From an uncultured Prevotellaceae bacterium (GTDB lineage: Bacteria > Bacteroidota > Bacteroidia > Bacteroidales > Bacteroidaceae): a stretch of DNA of 64,000 nucleotides. The translations under genes were made by a program, and so were the position numbers. Positions 1,219 through 60,279 of the stretch are shown here, piece by piece. A model generated the notes under the pieces. The model searched no databases, was not told where the DNA came from, and was given only the letters and a program-made list of their open reading frames with translations. The stretch is taken from assembly GCA_900316285.1 (NCBI GenBank), contig ONCG01000012.1, positions 1-64,000 on the forward strand, read 5' to 3'. Numbering within the stretch: the stretch's first letter is position 1; every line of letters begins with the position of its first letter.

Positions 1219-1250
1219 TTGGCTTGCCCGTGAACGCCTGTAAATCGCTG

Positions 1251-1472
1251 AAAGCTATGCTTTTGCATTCGGAAAGCTATGCTTTCGGACGTGGAAAGTT
1301 ATGCTTTCGGATGTCTAGAGCTATGCTTTCGGAAGCGAAAAGCTATGCTTTTGACGTCCAAAAGCAATGCTCTAGCGCTTACGGAGCTATGTTCTTGTGC
1401 TTACGGAACTATGTTCTAGCGCTTACGGAGCTATGTTCTTGTGCTTACGGAGCTATGCTTTGGGACAAATAA
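1251..1472. repeat. Ten-unit palindrome array with exact 22-bp period
   Basis: Cores begin at 1251, 1273, 1295, 1317, 1339, 1361, 1383, 1405, 1427 and 1449. The early units read AAAGCTATGCTTT, a middle one AAAGCAATGCTCT, and later ones GGAGCTATGTTCT, GGAACTATGTTCT and GGAGCTATGCTTT. Each core is a 5-nt arm, a 3-nt loop and a 5-nt complementary arm. The roughly 9-nt linkers vary. Spacing never departs from 22 bp although the units have diverged. Confidence 0.9.
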
Positions 1473-18895: not shown

Positions 18896-20866
18896 TCATG
18901 ATTCTGCTGGTGCATCAGCGGGTGTCGGGGCTGGCGCCGCGGTGGGTGTAGCACCGGGCTCGGCGGCAGGCAGCATCTCGTTGATACGGCCCACGATCTT
19001 CTGGTTCGTATCGCGGATGACGTTCAGATCGTGGTGCAGGCGGAGGCGGAACTTCCACATGCGGAAATACAGAAACAGCCCCAAGGGCATGATGATGGCC
19101 GCCACAATGTTCATCCAGCGATGCTCGAAGGGGCGTGTGTGTGCCTTCACCGAGACGATTGGATAGTGGTTGAGCTCGGTGAGGATGAACTTGTCGCGCG
19201 TGTTACCGAGATCCTCGATGACGAGTTCCATCTCGTCGCTGATGCGCTCAATCTCGTGGTCGGGCTCGTAGCGGAAGAACACTTTTACGGGATTCGGCAT
19301 GCGGATGAGGCTATGCTGACGGGCATAGACCGTCACTTCGTCGGTGATGCGGTTGAGGGCTACAGCGTCGGCGCGATAGTCAGGATCGTTGATGATGACC
19401 TCCTTGCCAAAGACGTGCCGCTTCTGGCGTAGTCCGAGCAGACGGATGAAGAACGTGCGATAGGCATCCATATTGAACACCACCGAGTCGTTGTTGGCCT
19501 TGTAGGTGAAGAACACAGCAAGGGGTGCGAGCACGGCGGTGGCGAGGCCCTTTCCGAACCAGATTGACCACATGCCGCCTCGCGACATGCGGTAGCCGGT
19601 GTTGTCGAGGATGTAGAAGATGATGAAAACCACCACCGAAATAATGACCGGAATGCCGAGTCCACCCTTGCGGATGATGGCTCCGAGGGGTGCGCCGATG
19701 AAGAAGAAGATAAGGCACGACAAGGCAAGCGTGAACTTACTGATGGCCTCGATGTTATGTTCGCGCAAGATGCGATCGGCATCGTTCATGATCATAGCCT
19801 GAAACTCCAGCTCGCTCATCTGCGACTGCACATTGCTCAGCGCCATGTTCACCACACGCTGCTTCTCGTTCTCCGGCAAACGGTTGAAGAGGGTGTCGAG
19901 GTTGAGCGTAGGACTGGCGGCGCGCTTCTCAGCAACCGTCGAGTCGCGGCCCGAAAGCGGAAACTCCGTGTAGTAGCGCGACTGGGCAGCGGTGTAGTAG
20001 CTGTGGCCGATGCTGTCGTAGACCAGACTGAGCGAGTCGCGGTCGTGGAGAATCTGTTCGATGCCCTTTCCGCGAGCGTCGGCAGAGAACAGCGAGGCAT
20101 CGGCGACGTTGAAGTCGCCGTCGTAGTCGAGGACGAGTTGTTTCGTGGTGAATGTCTGTCGCTGATAGGGCACCGATGCCGAGCCACCCAGCTGCTGCGA
20201 CTGCATGTTCTCGAACCACTCCCCACTCCACAGCGAGAGCAACAGGTGCTGCTTGTCGGCAGTGGTCTGCAGCATACCCGAGTCGGCGAGGATGATCTGC
20301 TGGTCCTCGTAGCTGCCCGTCATGCGATAGATCATAATGCCATAGAGCTTACCCGTCTGCATGTCCTTCTTTTGCACGTAGATGTTGCTGCCGGGAATGC
20401 CGTCGTAGAAGATGCCTTCGGGAATCTCCAACTCTGGACTCTTCTGTTTCATCGAAACAAGTAGCTGTCGCATCTTGAACGTGGCTTCGGGGGCAATGTA
20501 GTTCTGGAAATAGAGCGAGCCCAAGCAGATGACCACCGCTACGACGATGAGCGAGCGCATGGCCTGCATGAGCGAGATGCCGGCAGCCTTGATGGCGGTG
20601 AGCTCACTGCTCTCGCCCAGGTTACCAAAGGTGATGAGCGACGACAACAGTAGCGCAAGCGGTAGCGCCTGTGCCACGAGGCTCAGTCCCATATACCAGA
20701 AGAACTGCGCCATCACCTCCATCGAGATTCCCTTACCGATGAGCTCGTCGACATATCGCCACAGGAACTGCATCATCAACACAAACTGGCTGATGAAGAA
20801 CGTTCCCACGAACAGCAGCATGAACTGCTTGATCATGAATATGTCGAGCTTCTTGATTCTGAACAT
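18896..20866 (-). CDS. LptF/LptG-family permease (lipopolysaccharide export)
   Basis: A 656-residue inner-membrane protein of the YjgP/YjgQ family (LptF/LptG), which with LptB extracts lipopolysaccharide from the inner membrane for transport outward. The N-terminal half has transmembrane helices at about 13-35, 55-80 and 100-125, with the typical opening IKKLDIFMIKQFMLLFVGTFF and SSLITFGNLGESSELTAIKAAGIS. A long periplasmic beta-jellyroll region follows. Three further helices occur at about 365-455 (ALSCLIFFFIGAPLGAIIRKGGLG is a family hallmark). After them is an unusually long cytosolic tail with another hydrophobic patch near 595 and a Pro/Ala-rich end. At 656 residues it is far longer than E. 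coli LptF (366), as is common in Bacteroidetes. LptF and LptG cannot be told apart here. Confidence 0.87.
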   Translation of the reverse strand: MFRIKKLDIFMIKQFMLLFVGTFFISQFVLMMQFLWRYVDELIGKGISMEVMAQFFWYMGLSLVAQALPLALLLSSLITFGNLGESSELTAIKAAGISLMQAMRSLIVVAVVICLGSLYFQNYIAPEATFKMRQLLVSMKQKSPELEIPEGIFYDGIPGSNIYVQKKDMQTGKLYGIMIYRMTGSYEDQQIILADSGMLQTTADKQHLLLSLWSGEWFENMQSQQLGGSASVPYQRQTFTTKQLVLDYDGDFNVADASLFSADARGKGIEQILHDRDSLSLVYDSIGHSYYTAAQSRYYTEFPLSGRDSTVAEKRAASPTLNLDTLFNRLPENEKQRVVNMALSNVQSQMSELEFQAMIMNDADRILREHNIEAISKFTLALSCLIFFFIGAPLGAIIRKGGLGIPVIISVVVFIIFYILDNTGYRMSRGGMWSIWFGKGLATAVLAPLAVFFTYKANNDSVVFNMDAYRTFFIRLLGLRQKRHVFGKEVIINDPDYRADAVALNRITDEVTVYARQHSLIRMPNPVKVFFRYEPDHEIERISDEMELVIEDLGNTRDKFILTELNHYPIVSVKAHTRPFEHRWMNIVAAIIMPLGLFLYFRMWKFRLRLHHDLNVIRDTNQKIVGRINEMLPAAEPGATPTAAPAPTPADAPAES

Positions 20867-20919: not shown

Positions 20920-21130
20920 GTGCAAAGTTACGAATAAGTGAGCGAAATGCAAAGGAAAAAAAGGATTTTTTTGCTTTGCTTTTCCGAACGAAAGTAAATT
21001 CGGCGAAGCCAAAATTACGAAAAGTTGAGCGCAAAACAAAGAAACTCGTTTCTTTTTTTGCCGAGACGGAGTAACTTCGCGAATTTTAATCGCAAAGGTA
21101 CGAAAAAATCGCGTAAGTGAGCAAAAAGGA
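20920..21130. repeat. Promoter-like degenerate repeats
   Basis: GCAAAGTTACGAATAAGTGAG at 20922-20942 and GCAAAGGTACGAAAAAATCG at 21092-21111 (followed by TAAGTGAGCAAAA) are versions of one motif. A middle, more diverged copy contains ATTACGAAAAGTTGAGCGC near 21012-21031. On the minus strand the two clear copies read TTTG-N19/21-TAnCTTTG. Confidence 0.7.
20923..20953 (-). promoter_or_regulatory. LptF/G promoter carried by an interspersed repeat
   Basis: On the minus strand TTTG (20950-20953), 19 nt, then TAACTTTG (20923-20930). The whole stretch (GCAAAGTTACGAATAAGTGAG...) is a repeat with a second version at 21093-21125, so the promoter appears to be part of a repeated cassette. Confidence 0.7.
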
Positions 21131-31091: not shown

Positions 31092-31178
31092 GCTGCTGCG
31101 CAGCGTTCAAAGCAGCATAGCTGCGTTCAAAGTTCAAAAGCAGCATAGCTGCGTTCAAAGTGCAAAGCAGCAAGCTGC
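31092..31178. repeat. Hairpin array GCAGC-ATA-GCTGC with GTTCAAAG linkers
   Basis: Hairpins at 31092-31104 (GCTGC-TGC-GCAGC), 31112-31124 and 31140-31152 (GCAGC-ATA-GCTGC) and 31167-31178 (GCAGC-AA-GCTGC). The first has its arms swapped relative to the others yet still pairs. Linkers repeat CGTTCAAAG. The array starts at the base after the stop codon of the lipoprotein gene. Confidence 0.85.
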
Positions 31179-31192
31179 GTTTAAAGCGCCGT

Positions 31193-43148: not shown

Positions 43149-43315
43149 GGAGCTATGCTTTAGATGTACTGGAGCATATCTCTGATTCGTATGGAGCTAT
43201 GCTCCGTATCACACAAAGCACATCTTTTATCCGTATGGAGCTATGCTCCGTATCACGCAAAGCACATCTTTTATCCGTATGGAGCTATGCTCCGTGTGTG
43301 GAGGTGGCATGCTCC
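43149..43315. repeat. Eight-unit palindrome array with exact 22-bp period
   Basis: Cores start at 43149, 43171, 43193, 43215, 43237, 43259, 43281 and 43303. They read GGAGCTATGCTTT, GGAGCATATCTCT, GGAGCTATGCTCC, AAAGCACATCTTT, GGAGCTATGCTCC, AAAGCACATCTTT, GGAGCTATGCTCC and GGTGGCATGCTCC. The two middle types alternate, making a 44-bp superperiod. Same family as 1251-1472. Confidence 0.9.
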
Positions 43316-43679
43316 ACACTCGTAGGGGTCTGACCCTACCGTTGATGAATATGTTTTGTATCAAAAAGTCAAAGAACGCGTGTTATATATCGTTGAAAGG
43401 GATAGAGAGAAGAGGGTGACGGGCGGGGGCGACAGAGAGAGCTATGCGAGTCAACTGGAGCATTATGGGCGACGAAAGCGTGTGGGCAGAGGCTGTTTTC
43501 CGGTATTTGATAGTATCCTTAATACAAGTGCAAAGTTACGAAAAAAAGTTGAAACTTCCAAATCGTAAGTAGAGGAAACTGCACTTTCGGGGACAAAAAC
43601 TGCACTTTTGGGAGAAACGTAAAAATATCGCAAAACTATTGTAGCCAAGGTGTTTAAGTGGGATGGTTATATTATCTAT

Positions 43680-43873
43680 GTGGTGACAGGTGACAGGTGA
43701 CAGTTTTGTTTTTAGCAATATGAAAGGTATTTTGGGGGAATTATATGTAAAAATCATTATTATAATATTTTACTATTAATATATAATATATATATTATAT
43801 ATTAATAGTAACTTATAAATTACCACCTTTTACCTACTCTTGAGAGAAACTGTCACCTGTCACCTGTCACCAC
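43680..43873. repeat. TGTCAC iterons in perfect 27-bp inverted repeats around a perfect 40-bp AT palindrome (element B)
   Basis: Left arm 43680-43706 is GTGGTGACAGGTGACAGG... with GTGACAG at a 7-bp period; right arm 43847-43873 is its exact reverse complement. Between them 43771-43810 is a perfect 40-bp palindrome of A/T-rich sequence (half TACTATTAATATATAATATA) with no loop. No gene lies inside. Confidence 0.92.
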
Positions 43874-54927: not shown

Positions 54928-56331
54928 ATGAGGTTAGTTAGTGTGCGTTTCTTGCTCGTGGCTGTGGTCGGACTCCTCCCGTGGTCGGACGTCTGCGGAC
55001 AGGGCCGTTACACCCAGCTCACGGATGTGCCGACACTCTACATCGAGACGGAGAACGGGCGCAGCATCACGAGCAAGGAGCAGTACACGAAGTGCACCCT
55101 CATCATCGTCGACGGCGACTCCATAGCCACCTATCCCGATACGGAAATCCGCGGGCGCGGCAACTCCACGTGGTGGAACTCCGACAAGAAGGCCTACCGC
55201 ATCAAGTTTGCCACGAAGCAGAAGCTGCTCGGCCGACACTTCGCCAACGCCCGCAGCTGGACGCTCCTGGCCAATCACGGCGACAAGACGATGATTCGCA
55301 ACGCGCTCACCTACGACCTCGGGCGCTTCATGGGAATAGAGTTCTGTCCGGCAGCCCGCTTCGTCGACGTCTATCTGAACGGAACCTATCGCGGCACCTA
55401 TCAGATTAGCGACCAGGTGCAGGCCCACAAACGGCGCATCGACATCAACGAGGAAGACGGTTGCATCCTGGAAGTGGCTAACGAGAACTCGCGAGAGGAG
55501 CCGTACATCACTTCGTCGGTCTTTCGCATCATGTACAACGTGAAGAATCCGAAGGACGACGCCCTGACGATGCAGAAGCGAATCGCCATCGGTCAGTGGA
55601 TTGAAGGGATGGAACGTGCGGTGAAAGGCAACGACTTCACCGACCCGGAGCGAGGCTACCGCGCCTACATCGACGAGCAGAGTCTGGTGAACTGGTACGT
55701 GGGAGCCGAGATTACGGGTAACATCGATGCCCTCTACAGCATCTACATGTGGAAGGATGCCGACGAGCAGAAGATGCACTTCGGTCCGCTTTGGGACCTC
55801 GACATCGGCTACGACAACAGCTCGGAGCGTAGCATGCTGCGTGAGATGGAAGCCTATCTGGGTCTGTGGAACCGTCCGTTCGAGCAAGTGTTGCGCCGCA
55901 TGTGGCAGGACTGGTGGTTCGCCAACGCCTGCGCCGACCGCCTCAACGAACTCATTGCCAACGGACTGGAGCAGTATCTGCTGGATCACATCGACAGCCT
56001 GAGCGCTGCCATCAGCCAGTCGCAGGCGCAGAACTACCGCGTGTGGCCCATCAATCAGCAGGTGTTCAGCTTCGAGAAACATCGTTACTACAACAACTAT
56101 CAGGCATACATCAACGACCTGAAGGACTTCGTGCGTGTTCACATCCCCTATCTGCAGCAAGCCTTCGAGCAGCGGCGTACGACAGGAATCCATCAAATGG
56201 AAAATGGAGAATTGAAAATGGAAAATGAGACCATCTACGACCTCAGCGGACGAAAGGTAAGTTCTACACGCCCATACTCAAACACTCCCACCATCCTAAT
56301 CAGAAACCATCAGAAAATACTGAAGAAATAA
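54928..56331 (+). CDS. CotH-kinase-like secreted protein in the beta-glucan PUL
   Basis: A 467-residue protein with a signal peptide (about 1-24). It matches the CotH family (PF08757): LYIETENGRSITSKEQYTKC, the hallmark EIRGRGNSTWW (about 72-82), KKAYRIKFATKQKLLG, WTLLANHGDKTMIRNALTYDLGR, RIDINEEDGCILEVANE and FGPLWDLDIGYDNSS (about 289-303), the last with the acidic metal-site residues. CotH proteins of Bacillus are secreted protein kinases; the Bacteroidetes members have unknown substrates. The C-terminus after a MENGELKMENE micro-repeat (IYDLSGRKVSST...ILIRNHQKILKK) looks like a decayed T9SS type A tail. The stop overlaps the GH5 start (TAATG). No glycan-degrading function can be assigned. 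Confidence 0.85.
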   Translation: MRLVSVRFLLVAVVGLLPWSDVCGQGRYTQLTDVPTLYIETENGRSITSKEQYTKCTLIIVDGDSIATYPDTEIRGRGNSTWWNSDKKAYRIKFATKQKLLGRHFANARSWTLLANHGDKTMIRNALTYDLGRFMGIEFCPAARFVDVYLNGTYRGTYQISDQVQAHKRRIDINEEDGCILEVANENSREEPYITSSVFRIMYNVKNPKDDALTMQKRIAIGQWIEGMERAVKGNDFTDPERGYRAYIDEQSLVNWYVGAEITGNIDALYSIYMWKDADEQKMHFGPLWDLDIGYDNSSERSMLREMEAYLGLWNRPFEQVLRRMWQDWWFANACADRLNELIANGLEQYLLDHIDSLSAAISQSQAQNYRVWPINQQVFSFEKHRYYNNYQAYINDLKDFVRVHIPYLQQAFEQRRTTGIHQMENGELKMENETIYDLSGRKVSSTRPYSNTPTILIRNHQKILKK

Positions 56332-57590
56332 TGATGAAGCAGAAATCATTCCTCATGGTAGCATTGTTACTCGGTTACTTTGTCACTTTGTTACCTTGTC
56401 AAGTCCTGGCCAAGAAAGGCTTTGTGCACGTAGAAGGCACAAACCTCATCCAGCCCAACGGCGAACAGCTGTTCATCGTTGGCACGAACCTGGGCAACTG
56501 GCTCAATCCCGAAGGCTACATGTTCGGCTTCTCGAAGACCAACTCCGCCTGGATGATCGACCTGCTCTTCAAGGAGGCTGTAGGTCCCGACGAGGCCGCC
56601 AGCTTCTGGCGTGAGTTCAAGGACAACTACATCACGCAGGCCGACATCGACTACATCAAGAGCACAGGCGCCAACACCATTCGCCTGCCGTTCAACTACA
56701 AGCTCTTCACCAATGAGGACTACATGGGGCTCACCCATCAACAGGATGGTTTCAAGCGCATCGACCAGGTGGTCAACTGGTGTCGGAAGGCAGGGCTCTA
56801 CCTCATTCTCGACATGCACGACTGCCCGGGTTCGCAGACCGGCGACAACATCGACGACGGCTACGGCTATCCCTGGCTCTTCGAGAGCGAGCCGAGCCAG
56901 CAAGTGTTCTGCAACATCTGGCAGAGCATCGCCCGCCGCTACGCAAAGGAACCGGTCATCCTCGGCTATGAGCTCATGAACGAGCCCATCGCCCACTATT
57001 TCGAAAACAAAGACGAGCTGAACCAAAAGCTCGAACCCCTATACAAACGTGCGGTGAAGGCCATCCGCCAAGTCGACCGCAATCACGTCATCCTGCTGGG
57101 CGGCGCCCGCTGGAATAGCGATTTCTTCATGTTCAACGACTGGAAGTTCGACGATAACATCATGTACACCTGTCATCGCTACGGCGGTCAGCCTACGGCC
57201 GAAGCCATCAGCGACTACATCGGTCATCAGCAGAAGACCGGCCTTCCGATGTACATGGGCGAGATCGGCCACAACACCATCGAATGGCAGACCAGCTTCG
57301 TGAAGGTGATGAAGGAGGCCAACATCGGCTACACCTTCTGGCCCTACAAGAAACTCGACGGCTCATGCATGATGGGCATCCAGCGCCCGGAGCTGTGGGA
57401 CTCGGTGGTCGTAAAGTACTCCGAGACCGACCGCACCACCTATAAGGACCTGCGCGAGGCACGCCCCAGCCAGGAGCTCTTCCGCCAACAGCTGCGCCAG
57501 TTCATACGGAACTGCCGCTTCGAGCATTGCCGTGAACAGAAAGAATACGTCCTTTCGATGGGCTTGAAACCTGCTCTCGTGAATCAATAG
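56331..57590 (+). CDS. GH5-family glucanase (PUL 2)
   Basis: A 419-residue secreted enzyme with signal peptide to about residue 27. Family GH5 (clan A) barrel at about 35-370. Acid/base Glu218 in ELMNEP, nucleophile Glu311 in YMGEIGHN, Arg118 in NTIRLPFN and His163 in LDMHDCPG are all present. Residues 370-419 are a basic helical extension. Exo- or endo-glucanase action on beta-1,3/1,4/1,6-glucan is likely from context; the subfamily was not identified. The signal-peptide stretch LLGYFVTLLPCQV is encoded by a TTACTTTGTCACTTTGTTAC-type micro-repeat. It is coupled to the cotH-like gene by an overlapping TAATG. A 22-bp array begins 18 bp after the stop. Confidence 0.88.
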   Translation: MMKQKSFLMVALLLGYFVTLLPCQVLAKKGFVHVEGTNLIQPNGEQLFIVGTNLGNWLNPEGYMFGFSKTNSAWMIDLLFKEAVGPDEAASFWREFKDNYITQADIDYIKSTGANTIRLPFNYKLFTNEDYMGLTHQQDGFKRIDQVVNWCRKAGLYLILDMHDCPGSQTGDNIDDGYGYPWLFESEPSQQVFCNIWQSIARRYAKEPVILGYELMNEPIAHYFENKDELNQKLEPLYKRAVKAIRQVDRNHVILLGGARWNSDFFMFNDWKFDDNIMYTCHRYGGQPTAEAISDYIGHQQKTGLPMYMGEIGHNTIEWQTSFVKVMKEANIGYTFWPYKKLDGSCMMGIQRPELWDSVVVKYSETDRTTYKDLREARPSQELFRQQLRQFIRNCRFEHCREQKEYVLSMGLKPALVNQ

Positions 57591-57607
57591 CAATACGCTG
57601 GTTTTGC

Positions 57608-57732
57608 AAATTAAGTTATTTTGTGATGCAAATTAAGTTAATTTATGAAGTAAATTAAGTTAAATTACTGAGCAAATTAAGTTAATTTACCGCACAAATT
57701 AAGTTAATTTACTGAACAAATTAAGTTAATTT
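57608..57732. repeat. Six-unit array with exact 22-bp period, AAATTAA-G-TTAATTT type
   Basis: Cores start at 57608, 57630, 57652, 57674, 57696 and 57718. The consensus AAATTAAGTTAATTT is an odd palindrome (AAATTAA-G-TTAATTT) separated by about 7 nt such as ACTGAAC. The A/T tracts recur every two helical turns, so the DNA may be curved. Confidence 0.9.
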
Positions 57733-57762
57733 GCTGAACAAGGTCATAGCGATAGGCAAATG

Positions 57763-57909
57763 AAAGCATTGCTCAACAAGGACGAAAGCATTGCTCAACA
57801 AGGACAAAAGCATTGCTCTACAAGGATGAAAGCATTGTTCCACAAGGACGAAAGTAGTGCTCTACAAGGATGAAAGCATTGTTCCACAAGGATGAAACCA
57901 TTGTTCGAC
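57763..57909. repeat. Seven-unit array with exact 22-bp period, AAAGCATTGCTC type
   Basis: Cores start at 57763, 57785, 57807, 57829, 57851, 57873 and 57895 (AAAGCATTGCTCAAC, AAAGCATTGCTCTAC, AAAGCATTGTTCCAC, AAAGTAGTGCTCTAC, AAACCATTGTTCGAC). They are joined by AAGGACG or AAGGATG linkers. The first unit is 45 bp after the last unit of the preceding array, one base off the same register. The last unit lies 50 bp before the GH3 start. Confidence 0.9.
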
Positions 57910-57945
57910 GAAAACAAAAACAATAACATAATAAAAGGACTATCA

Positions 57946-60279
57946 ATGAAAAGGACAATTACCAACATGCTGGCGCTGGCAGCAACCATCCTGACAGCCG
58001 GCAGCCTGCAGGCTCAGACTCCCAGCTCACTAGTGAGGAGCCAGGCCCCTCTCTATCTCGACGAGACGAAGCCCGTGGAGCAGCGCATCGACGACGCGCT
58101 GTCACGCATGACACTCAACGAGAAAATCCGCGTGATCCACGCACAGTCGAAATTCTCGGCAGCAGGCGTTCCGCGTCTAGGAATGCCCGACTTCTGGACC
58201 GACGACGGCCCTCACGGCGTACGTCCCGACGTGCTTTGGGACGAGTGGGTGCAGGCTGGTCAAACCAACGACTCGTGTGTGGCCTTCCCCGCCTTGACGT
58301 GTCTCGCTGCTACGTGGGATCCCGACCTGGCACGTCTCTATGGCGAAAGCCTGGGCGAAGAGGCTCGCTATCGCGGCAAGGACATGATTCTCGGCCCGGG
58401 CGTGAACATCTATCGCACTCCGCTTGGCGGCCGCAACTTCGAATACATGGGTGAAGACCCGTTGCTGGCCAGCCGGATGGTGGTTCCCTACGTGCAGGGA
58501 CTGCAGTCGAAGGGCGTTGCCTCGTGTGTGAAGCACTATGCGCTGAACAACGACGAGGAGTATCGCCATCAGGTGAATGTGGTGATTAGCGACCGCGCTC
58601 TCCGCGAAATCTATCTGCCTGCCTTCCGTGCCGCCATCACCGAGGGCAAGGCGTGGGGCATCATGGGTGCCTACAACCTCTACAACGACCAACACAACTG
58701 CCATAATGATATCACGCTGAACCGTATCCTGAAAGGCGACTGGGGCTTCGACGGAGTCGTCGTGAGCGACTGGGGCGGCTGTCACGACACCGAACAGGCC
58801 ATCTTCAACGGACTCGACATGGAGTTCGGAACATGGACCGACGGACTGACGATGGGACGCACCAACGCCTACGACTCCTACTATCTTGCAGAGCCTTACA
58901 AGAAGCTCATCAACGAGGCCACCGGCCAACGCAAGGCCGACCTCATGAAAGCACTCGACGAGAAGGTGCGACGCGTGCTGCGCCTCTACTTCCGCACGAC
59001 GATGAACAAGCATCGCGCACAGGGCTTCCTCTGCTCGGAAGAACACTATGCTGCCGCCCGAAAGATTGCAGGCGAAGGCATCGTATTGCTGAAGAACAGT
59101 CCCGTCGTAGACCGCTCCGCGAAGAACAAGAAAGCCCAGAAGCCGCTATTGCCTCTCGACCTGACAAATTGTAAGAAAGTATTGGTCGTAGGCGAGAATG
59201 CCATCAAGATGATGACCGTCGGCGGTGGCTCGTCGTCGCTGAAGGTACAGCATGAGATAGTACCCCTCGACGGCCTCGTCTCTCAACTCTCCGCTCTCAA
59301 CTCTCAACTTACCATCGACTATGCCCGCGGCTATGTGGGCGACACCATCCAGAGTTTCGACGGCGTCACCGTTGGCAATCACAAGCTCAGCGACAAGCGT
59401 TCGGAGGACGAACTCATCCGTGAAGCCGTCGGCAAGGCTCGCGAGGCCGATGTGGTGATTATGTTTGGCGGACTCAACAAGAGCGGTCGTCAGGACTGCG
59501 AAGGCGTCGACCGCCAGCAGTACGACCTGCCCTATGCACAGAATCGCCTGGTGGAAGCACTCGTAGCTGCCAACCCGCGCCTTGTCTATGTGAACATTTC
59601 CGGCAACGGTGCTGCCCTTCCTTGGCTCAACAAGGTGCCGGCAGTCGTGCAGGGATGGTTCATCGGCTCGGAAGCCGGACATGCTCTGGCCGACGTGCTG
59701 CTGGGCGATGTGAACCCGAGTGGCAAGCTGCCCTTCACATGGTATGCCAATCTTGAGCAATGTGGTGCCCACGCGCTGAAGACCTATCCCGGCACTTGGC
59801 GCGAAGGCAAGAAGATTATCGACGAGGAATACAAGGAAGATGTCTTCGTGGGCTATCGCTGGACCGACCGTCTGAAGAAGGAAAAGCCGCTCTTCGCCTT
59901 TGGTCACGGACTGAGCTACACCACCTTCCAGCTGGGCAAGGCTGCTGCCGACAAGACCCAGATGGCTCAGGGCGGCAGCATCTCGTTCACCGTTCCCGTC
60001 ACGAACACAGGCGACCGGGCCGGCGCTGAGACCGTACAGCTCTACATTCACGATGTGAAAGCATCGGTGGAGCGACCGGTGAAGGAACTGAAAGCCTTCC
60101 AGAAAGTCTTCCTGCAGCCGGGCGAGACACGCAATGTCACGCTGACCATCGGCACCGATGCCTTGTCGTTCTGGGACGAGCAGGCCAACGATTGGCGTGC
60201 TGAAGCAGGTCAGTTCGATGCCCTCATCGGCACCGCCAGCGACCAGCTGCCGCAGCGCGTACGCTTCACGCTGCAGTAA
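57946..60279 (+). CDS. GH3 beta-glucosidase (PUL 2)
   Basis: A 777-residue secreted enzyme starting at MKRTITNMLALAATILTAG (signal peptide to about residue 24); the 18-codon extension upstream is read from repeat DNA and is rejected. N-terminal (beta/alpha)8 domain (about 45-370) with KHYALNN (196-202) and nucleophile Asp275 in VVVSDWGG. The alpha/beta sandwich domain follows (about 385-620), with GRQDCEGVDRQQYDLPYAQ near its end. The C-terminal fibronectin III-like domain is at about 680-775 (FTVPVTNTGDRAGAETVQLYI). It would remove glucose from oligosaccharides made by GH16 and GH5. An in-frame micro-repeat encodes VSQLSALNSQLT at about 446-457, between the two catalytic subdomains. Confidence 0.93.
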   Translation: MKRTITNMLALAATILTAGSLQAQTPSSLVRSQAPLYLDETKPVEQRIDDALSRMTLNEKIRVIHAQSKFSAAGVPRLGMPDFWTDDGPHGVRPDVLWDEWVQAGQTNDSCVAFPALTCLAATWDPDLARLYGESLGEEARYRGKDMILGPGVNIYRTPLGGRNFEYMGEDPLLASRMVVPYVQGLQSKGVASCVKHYALNNDEEYRHQVNVVISDRALREIYLPAFRAAITEGKAWGIMGAYNLYNDQHNCHNDITLNRILKGDWGFDGVVVSDWGGCHDTEQAIFNGLDMEFGTWTDGLTMGRTNAYDSYYLAEPYKKLINEATGQRKADLMKALDEKVRRVLRLYFRTTMNKHRAQGFLCSEEHYAAARKIAGEGIVLLKNSPVVDRSAKNKKAQKPLLPLDLTNCKKVLVVGENAIKMMTVGGGSSSLKVQHEIVPLDGLVSQLSALNSQLTIDYARGYVGDTIQSFDGVTVGNHKLSDKRSEDELIREAVGKAREADVVIMFGGLNKSGRQDCEGVDRQQYDLPYAQNRLVEALVAANPRLVYVNISGNGAALPWLNKVPAVVQGWFIGSEAGHALADVLLGDVNPSGKLPFTWYANLEQCGAHALKTYPGTWREGKKIIDEEYKEDVFVGYRWTDRLKKEKPLFAFGHGLSYTTFQLGKAAADKTQMAQGGSISFTVPVTNTGDRAGAETVQLYIHDVKASVERPVKELKAFQKVFLQPGETRNVTLTIGTDALSFWDEQANDWRAEAGQFDALIGTASDQLPQRVRFTLQ

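Follow-up and report, generated by a model that had tools for sequence, protein, structure and literature searches.

Why should two tandem arrays of unlike sequence, lying side by side between a GH5 and a GH3 gene, keep the same 22-bp step? The question is raised by a 64,000-nucleotide stretch of an uncultured Prevotellaceae bacterium (GenBank assembly GCA_900316285.1, contig ONCG01000012.1, positions 1 to 64,000; hereafter the window), in which a first-pass annotation, made from the letters alone, had placed six A/T-tract units and seven units of a second type at exact 22-bp spacing and had suggested that the pitch itself is what is kept. We report that the two arrays form one element and that ladders with the same pitch and other letters recur along the chromosome. 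We tentatively read them as sites of chromosome organization and weigh this explanation against four others.

Both arrays are also recovered by Tandem Repeats Finder (TRF), the A/T array at 57607-57741 (score 175) and the second array at 57760-57906 (score 224, period 66) and 57760-57903 (score 197, period 22), and within each of them the step between neighboring units is 22 bp without exception. The A/T units start at 57608, 57630, 57652, 57674, 57696, and 57718; four of the six are exact AAATTAAGTTAATTT, with single-base differences in those at 57608 and 57652. The GAAAGCATTGCTC-type units start at 57762, 57784, 57806, 57828, 57850, 57872, and 57894, three of the seven being exact AAAGCATTGCTC. 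The second array had been described as one base out of register, an artifact of starting its unit at the second base: the dyad centers of both unit types fall on position 8 of the 22-bp unit, on a common grid of 57615 + 22k, and the 44-bp step from the last A/T unit to the first G/C unit contains one extra degenerate unit (57740). Two further degenerate units start at 57564 and 57586 on the left, the first coinciding with the last GH5 codons and the second containing the GH5 stop codon. Because both unit types share the dyad center and the exact 22-bp grid, the arrays are parts of a single 16-unit element of 352 bp (57564-57915).

The A/T core of this element is dispersed through the genome of this rumen Prevotella (3.89 Mb in 38 contigs). 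BLAST with the region, scoring 40 of 84 first-look candidates, gave at least 76 matches; merged, they define at least 38 places with an A/T core, the window included, and two places with the second type alone. A pattern search found 186 adjacent A/T unit pairs with up to three mismatches, about the number expected from 38 six-unit cores, and 0 in the reversed control. The 38 core-anchored copies share a unit-by-unit consensus that carries 24.7-37.4 bits per unit across the six core units and 11-17 bits in flank units -3 to 0 and 7 to 10, reaching background by about -6 and +13. In this consensus the flank units are reverse complements of each other (TAGAGCAATGCTTTC+GTGATGC on the left, GAAAGCATTGCTCTA+GCATCAC on the right), and core units 1-2 have spacers that mirror the one of unit 6; the whole element is therefore an inverted repeat of ladder units. 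Hairpin-like sequences stand to the right of arrays at loci L014 and L015 (GGGACGCGGCGTGCCGCG), L027 (GCCCCGACGGGGC), and L033 and L045 (GACCCCAAAGGGGTC).

That the pitch itself is kept is borne out beyond the A/T core, as other ladders of this genome and other Prevotella repeats keep the same step with different letters, and arm positions covary. Across the whole of contig C22 (359 kb), period 22 occurs in 16 of 55 TRF arrays, period 44 in four, period 66 in two, and any other period in at most three. The C22 ladder units GGTAACGGCATTACC, TACCACATAGTGGTA, TGCAGCAATGCTGCA, and GAGAGCAATGCTCTG each consist of a 15-bp dyad or near-dyad and a 7-bp spacer. We scanned 1.16 Mb (C22, C15, the first 100 kb of C16, C36, C28, and the window; the contigs were picked for length and were all already known to carry A/T copies) with a ladder detector that combines lag-22 identity with a dyad score, at a main threshold of z ≥ 13. 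Period 22 gave 40 regions at this threshold, with the GH5-GH3 region at z = 23, while other periods from 16 to 30 gave between 0 and 3 in each sequence; over eight control periods, none of them a multiple of 3, the average was 0.0 regions, and nothing in the six sequences reached 13.

Symmetry is the second constant. With the register set by symmetry, dyad columns carry more information than spacer columns, both in 92 A/T units (1.57 versus 0.61 bits) and in 394 other units (0.45 versus 0.10 bits). We applied a held-out covariation test, in which the register comes from some arm pairs and others are tested, to the non-A/T-rich units of 42 ladders, with 500 ladder shuffles. With the register from k = 1-4, covariation at k = 5 (0.50 versus 0.31 shuffled) and k = 7 (0.35 versus 0.25) lay above 500 of 500 shuffles, as it did at k = 2 (0.44 versus 0.28) and k = 4 (0.45 versus 0.30) with the register from k = 5-7; 90 random segments gave 0.24-0.27 versus 0.25. 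Several dyad positions change jointly on both arms, and it is the symmetry that is kept rather than the letters.

On C22 the ladders never lie close together, the first sign of an even spread. Random-placement tests were run first on C22, C15, and C16, after which C36 and C28 were added as fresh contigs. On these two alone, none of 11 spacings is below 10 kb (3.6 expected, P = 0.006), the minimum is 14.3 kb (P = 0.0001), and the coefficient of variation (CV) of the spacings is 0.35 versus 0.84 for random placement (P = 0.0005). Over all five contigs, 0 of 34 spacings fall below 10 kb versus 10.4 expected, and the minimum of 12.0 kb was matched in 0 of 20,000 random placements; nulls that allow only intergenic placement agree with an even spread. 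The result extends to the window when it is added at z ≥ 10 (0 of 35 spacings below 10 kb, 10.7 expected) and to the A/T copies alone, whose 16 spacings on nine contigs have a minimum of 20 kb (P = 0.003) and a CV of 0.45 (P = 0.002). Ladders on the examined contigs are 12-43 kb apart except across two longer ladder-free gaps of about 76 and 86 kb. Among ten proteins scanned, the longest gap of C22 holds polysaccharide (O-antigen/capsule) genes; that of C15, again among ten proteins scanned, holds TssD, a Clp-type ATPase, and DUF4280 and so probably includes a type VI secretion region. The longest gaps also carry ordinary genes such as DNA ligase, and C22 has a sub-threshold ladder at 115.7 kb. 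Adjacent C22 ladders often come from different families; the even spread is therefore not only a product of recombination between like repeats.

On simple open reading frame (ORF) calls, 36 of the 39 ladders found on the five contigs fall inside a gap of at least 100 bp or no more than 60 bp away from one. These 36 occupy tandem (16), convergent (13), and divergent (7) gaps, versus 206, 85, and 80 such gaps overall, which amounts to no significant gene-direction preference on the five contigs (convergent excess, P = 0.10). The 38 A/T copies, under a looser ORF cut-off, are in tandem (19), divergent (11), and convergent (8) contexts, with none inside an ORF.

Among relatives, the step is found more widely than the A/T letters. 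These letters are rare: G006 is the only one of 23 other genus members to hold them in number (29 matches), and none of 60 other family genomes contains two exact A/T units. Among named genomes they occur in four metagenome-assembled genomes (MAGs), with most stretches from RGIG7592, whose DNA is mostly 77-91% identical to that of the genome studied here; RGIG2694 is about 95% identical. Samples from 21 other members of the genus came to 624 kb (200 kb for G016, 139 kb for G010, and 0.3-20 kb for each of the remaining 19). Weak long repeats in them most often have lag 22, with 15 regions; lag 21 follows with 5, and the mean of the other lags is 0.8. Repeats of 22 bp are present in 7 of these 21 members, and 251 kb from other families of the order (20 stretches, 13 genomes) held no lag-22 region. 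The relatives' units have letters of their own (AAAAGGTTATCTTTT in G010, GAAATGCGTCATATC and GATTTGATGCAAATT in G016, TTCTAGGGGCTAGAC in G133, AGAAGTGGCACTTCT in G072), and several of their 22-bp regions show a weak dyad (e.g., L134, L179, L184); the 15-bp dyad stands in the same place in most but not all ladders and repeats with other letters. A ladder of the TACCAC...GTGGTA family lies at L281:1045-1176 (G275), about 0.3 kb upstream of the query-matching stretch, and a similar family is present in C22 at 281 kb.

Individual sites can be followed in part. Two-flank orthologs were obtained for 6 of 31 ladder regions of named MAG loci, corresponding to five sites in our genome, which has a ladder at all of them, a rate biased by the fact that four of the five sites, and the MAG loci, had been fetched for having ladders. 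For the GH5-GH3 junction, positions 56400-59200 of the window were searched in seven relatives; six matched and the junction was readable in four. In G247 (82%) there is a ladder, its A/T core followed by a right flank that is shorter and diverged, and in G275 (88%) there are three 22-bp units whose letters differ (AAAATGACTTGTTTT, AAAATAACTCATTTT, AAAACAACTCATTTT). G216 and G063 matched only GH3 at this gene pair, and G307 did not match. The left edge of the element corresponds to a 9-bp alignment gap in G275, G279, and G335, whose GH5 proteins are 1-5 residues shorter; a clean insertion boundary or target-site duplication could not be read from the junction alignment.

Table 1. Ladders of the window and the genes that border the GH5-GH3 element
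Feature	Coordinates	Strand	Remarks
Second window ladder, 22-bp units GAAAGCTATGCTTTC / CGGAGCTATGTTCT	1250..1469	+	z 17.5
Third, weaker window ladder, alternating units, 44-bp repeat	43170..43323	+	TRF score 211; z 8.1, near noise
GH5 gene	56331..57590	+	Pfam Cellulase; upstream of ladder
Left edge, two degenerate units	57564..57607	+	Fit left-flank unit consensus of 38 copies
Core, six A/T units AAATTAAGTTAATTT + 7-bp spacer	57608..57739	+	Unit-position-specific consensus; one of at least 38 genome copies
Degenerate unit 7 AAGGTCATAGCGATAGGCAAAT	57740..57761	+	Connects both arrays in register
Right flank, seven GAAAGCAWTGCTC-type units	57762..57915	+	Flanks core in most other copies as well
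GH3 gene	57946..60279	+	Pfam; ATG at 57946 after ATAAAAGGA; downstream of ladder

The ORF listing gives an earlier ATG for GH3, at 57892 (Table 1). Adjoining the two other window ladders, at 616-1219 and 43682-43871, are heptad/octad repeats of the GTGACA/TGTCACA type (GTCACATT, TGTGACAA), in which GGTGACA x3 stands opposite CTGTCAC x3 with an A/T-rich stretch between. A 28-bp tandem repeat at 31105-31186 contains a dyad, GCAGCATAGCTGC, that resembles a ladder unit at a different pitch.

Any explanation has to accommodate the geometry, the covariation at several pairs, the spread in this genome, the recurrence in part of the genus, and the turnover of sites. We tentatively propose that the ladders are arrays for a chromosome-organizing protein, the reading we hold likeliest though short of an even chance. 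The GH5-GH3 element would be one site of a chromosome-wide class whose members have between a few and about 16 units, each a mirror-symmetric 15-bp sequence, at a step of 22 bp. This step, equal to two helical turns, would place every unit on the same helix face; each dyad could be bound by a predicted dimer, dimers may stack along that face into a filament, and such filaments might serve the nucleoid as anchors, loop-forming sites, or marks, in rough analogy to matS/MatP in E. coli. Letters could drift between species and families because protein(s) and site(s) may change together, whereas the stacking distance cannot. It is possible, at slightly lower confidence, that Prevotella has architectural sites defined by geometry rather than letters, that is, stacks of 15-bp dyads at a 22-bp step and near-regular intervals, with letters specific to species or family, read by a putative oligomerizing protein or by DNA structure itself.

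Several results weigh against an architectural role. The even spread is established in one genome only: G016, with 12 ladders (z ≥ 8) in 200 kb, does not have it (minimum spacing 3.3 kb, P = 0.09; CV, P = 0.62), and at z ≥ 8 in our own genome, a threshold that should admit about 6 false calls, 2 of 39 spacings are shorter than 10 kb. In 144 kb covering 29 GH3 loci from elsewhere in the genus, lag 21 gave four regions and lag 22 one. Held-out covariation did not exceed the shuffles at k = 1, 3, and 6 in the 42 ladders. Core identity between supposed orthologs averages 0.844 (11 RGIG7592 pairs) versus 0.820 among copies within the genome, and of 12 pairs, six of which have two-flank confirmation, three have the ortholog as best match; orthologous cores are barely closer than genome copies, and strong constraint on each copy is therefore not shown. 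The G279 junction (84-88%) has no ladder and the G335 junction (80-82%) no obvious one, so single sites are dispensable. No binding protein was found, the search having been for two transposase families, and several unrelated arm families per genome are hard to explain with one protein. Separately, the idea that the core is better conserved than genes, suggested by one pair (L105/L021), failed in general.

There is a real possibility that the ladders are dispersed repeats of a selfish or neutral kind. The repeat would be a short element, mobile or gene-converted, that gains and loses units by 22-bp slippage, and its even spread would reflect target immunity or the purging of close copies. The 38 near-copies have a unit-position-specific consensus and hence appear to have been copied whole, and their reverse-complementary flanks make the element one long inverted repeat. 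At one site (array L028), our genome and RGIG2694, at about 95% identity, differ by gaps of exactly 22, 22, and 44 bp, which the L028 array lacks relative to RGIG2694. The missing site in G279, the lack of a clear link to gene direction, and orthologous cores that are often no nearer than other copies, as with gene conversion, point the same way. Slippage alone, however, leaves the arm covariation and the better preservation of dyads than spacers unexplained, and families of different letters have pitch, dyad center, and mutual spacing in common. No related transposase emerged from thin searches: Y1_Tnp, the family of RAYT-type transposases, has three matches in our genome and is scattered in the genus, and PF09299, searched as the Mu/Tn7-type transposase, matched 0 of 20 relatives and nothing in our genome, a result that is uninformative because 14 control genomes were equally silent. 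A Mu/Tn7-type link was considered because the sites of these transposases are about 22 bp and target immunity would give spacing. Nor was there a sign of mobile carriage, as the element had no match in the plasmid or phage records searched and two exact A/T units none in IMG/VR. Between these explanations we favor stacked-dimer chromosome sites, with the selfish repeat close behind.

It is unlikely that the ladders are a supercoiling or cruciform device, whose palindromes would be kept as structure (extruded or melted DNA, or a gyrase or topoisomerase target) with no base-specific reader protein. Such a device would fit the change of letters under constant symmetry, and the ladder spacing is of the same order as supercoil domains in other bacteria. 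However, 15-bp dyads are short for cruciforms, and the A/T core is strongly conserved in its letters, beyond symmetry.

The first-pass annotation had read the element as a local cis-regulatory array that controls GH3 inside a polysaccharide utilization locus, with in-phase bending, which we now consider very improbable. The element does occupy the GH5-GH3 gap, and the absence of a visible standard promoter there stands: the Bacteroidetes-type consensus is TTTG-N17-23-TANNTTTG, and no exact match lies between the two genes, with 10 elsewhere in the window. (Shuffling predicts 0.6 matches in the window, and three of them stand in tandem within about 200 bp at 20923-21125 on the - strand, upstream of ORF 18896-20866.) However, a role specific to GH3 or to the locus is not supported: the genome has the core in at least 38 places, and the gaps that hold it include tandem, divergent, and convergent ones. 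Nor is the ladder conserved with the gene: G247 has it, G275 carries three units with different letters, G279 lacks it, and G335 shows no obvious one; in G279 about 18 bp separate the GH5 stop from the GH3 ATG, an operon-like distance. Dispersed copies, gene context, and junction orthologs together rule out GH3-specific regulation as a general purpose, and control of GH3 is not what the ladders are generally for. Judging by sequence, curvature cannot be a property common to all ladders, because families such as TGCAGCAATGCTGCA lack A-tracts.

Least probable of all is an RNA feature such as an mRNA stabilizer, terminator, or small RNA hairpins, for although the units look hairpin-like on paper, sense-strand mismatches in 163 units of 16 tandem-context ladders are balanced between G-T (75) and A-C (78), so that there is no sign of RNA pairing in the form of a G-U over A-C bias, the gene-direction preference is not significant, and Rfam searches of six loci gave 8 matches at E ≤ 1, all to microRNA families and far under gathering scores.

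Should the ladders prove architectural, they would give access to the way in which a major genus of the rumen and gut folds its chromosome, and they would exemplify a rare situation: letters drift, yet the distance from site to site is conserved. Should they prove selfish, they would show how a repeat whose letters are not fixed can hold to a strict pitch, stay dyad-symmetric, and keep its copies at a distance from one another. The ladders hint at a so far unnamed way of marking or organizing a chromosome, and no 22-bp Prevotella ladder was found described in the literature searched, which covered few subscription journals.

Known systems resemble the ladders in part. REP (repetitive extragenic palindromic) elements and BIMEs (bacterial interspersed mosaic elements), with their RAYT transposases, are ladder-like in being extragenic palindromes in mosaic arrays with inverted neighbors; to our knowledge, REPs differ from ladders in having letters fixed per genome and no strict unit pitch. 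A further parallel is PINSR, a 188-bp consensus from the P. intermedia/nigrescens group that the 2015 paper leaves without function (PMC4755523). PINSR resembles the ladders in its number of copies, its intergenic position, and letters specific to a lineage, and 188 bp is close to 8.5 x 22; the portion of the paper available describes no 22-bp period, dyads, or even spread for PINSR, and the paper states that PINSR has no terminal inverted repeats (PMC4755523). Ladders share with PINSR an intergenic, many-copy, non-coding character, and by analogy PINSR may be of the same kind. The BrickBuilt minisatellite/miniature inverted-repeat transposable element (MITE) of Porphyromonas gingivalis likewise consists of tandem units of similar length, varying in number, intergenic and dispersed in a Bacteroidales genome (PMC4596501). 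It differs in its 23-nt units and in its leader and tail with small inverted-repeat ends, and the portion of the report available describes neither a letter-changing dyad ladder nor an even spread (PMC4596501). The ladder unit is 22 bp, and period 23 gave 0 regions at z ≥ 13. Another partial parallel is matS, a 13-bp site with 23 copies over 800 kb of the E. coli chromosome that structures a macrodomain with MatP (PMC3330122). Like ladders, matS is a class of site that recurs along the chromosome, although its sites are single and short, lie in one macrodomain, and have a known protein (PMC3330122). The ladders recur in a comparable manner, evenly spread on five contigs of this genome and dense rather than even in G016, and unlike matS they do so as letter-changing arrays, present on all five examined contigs and in the window.
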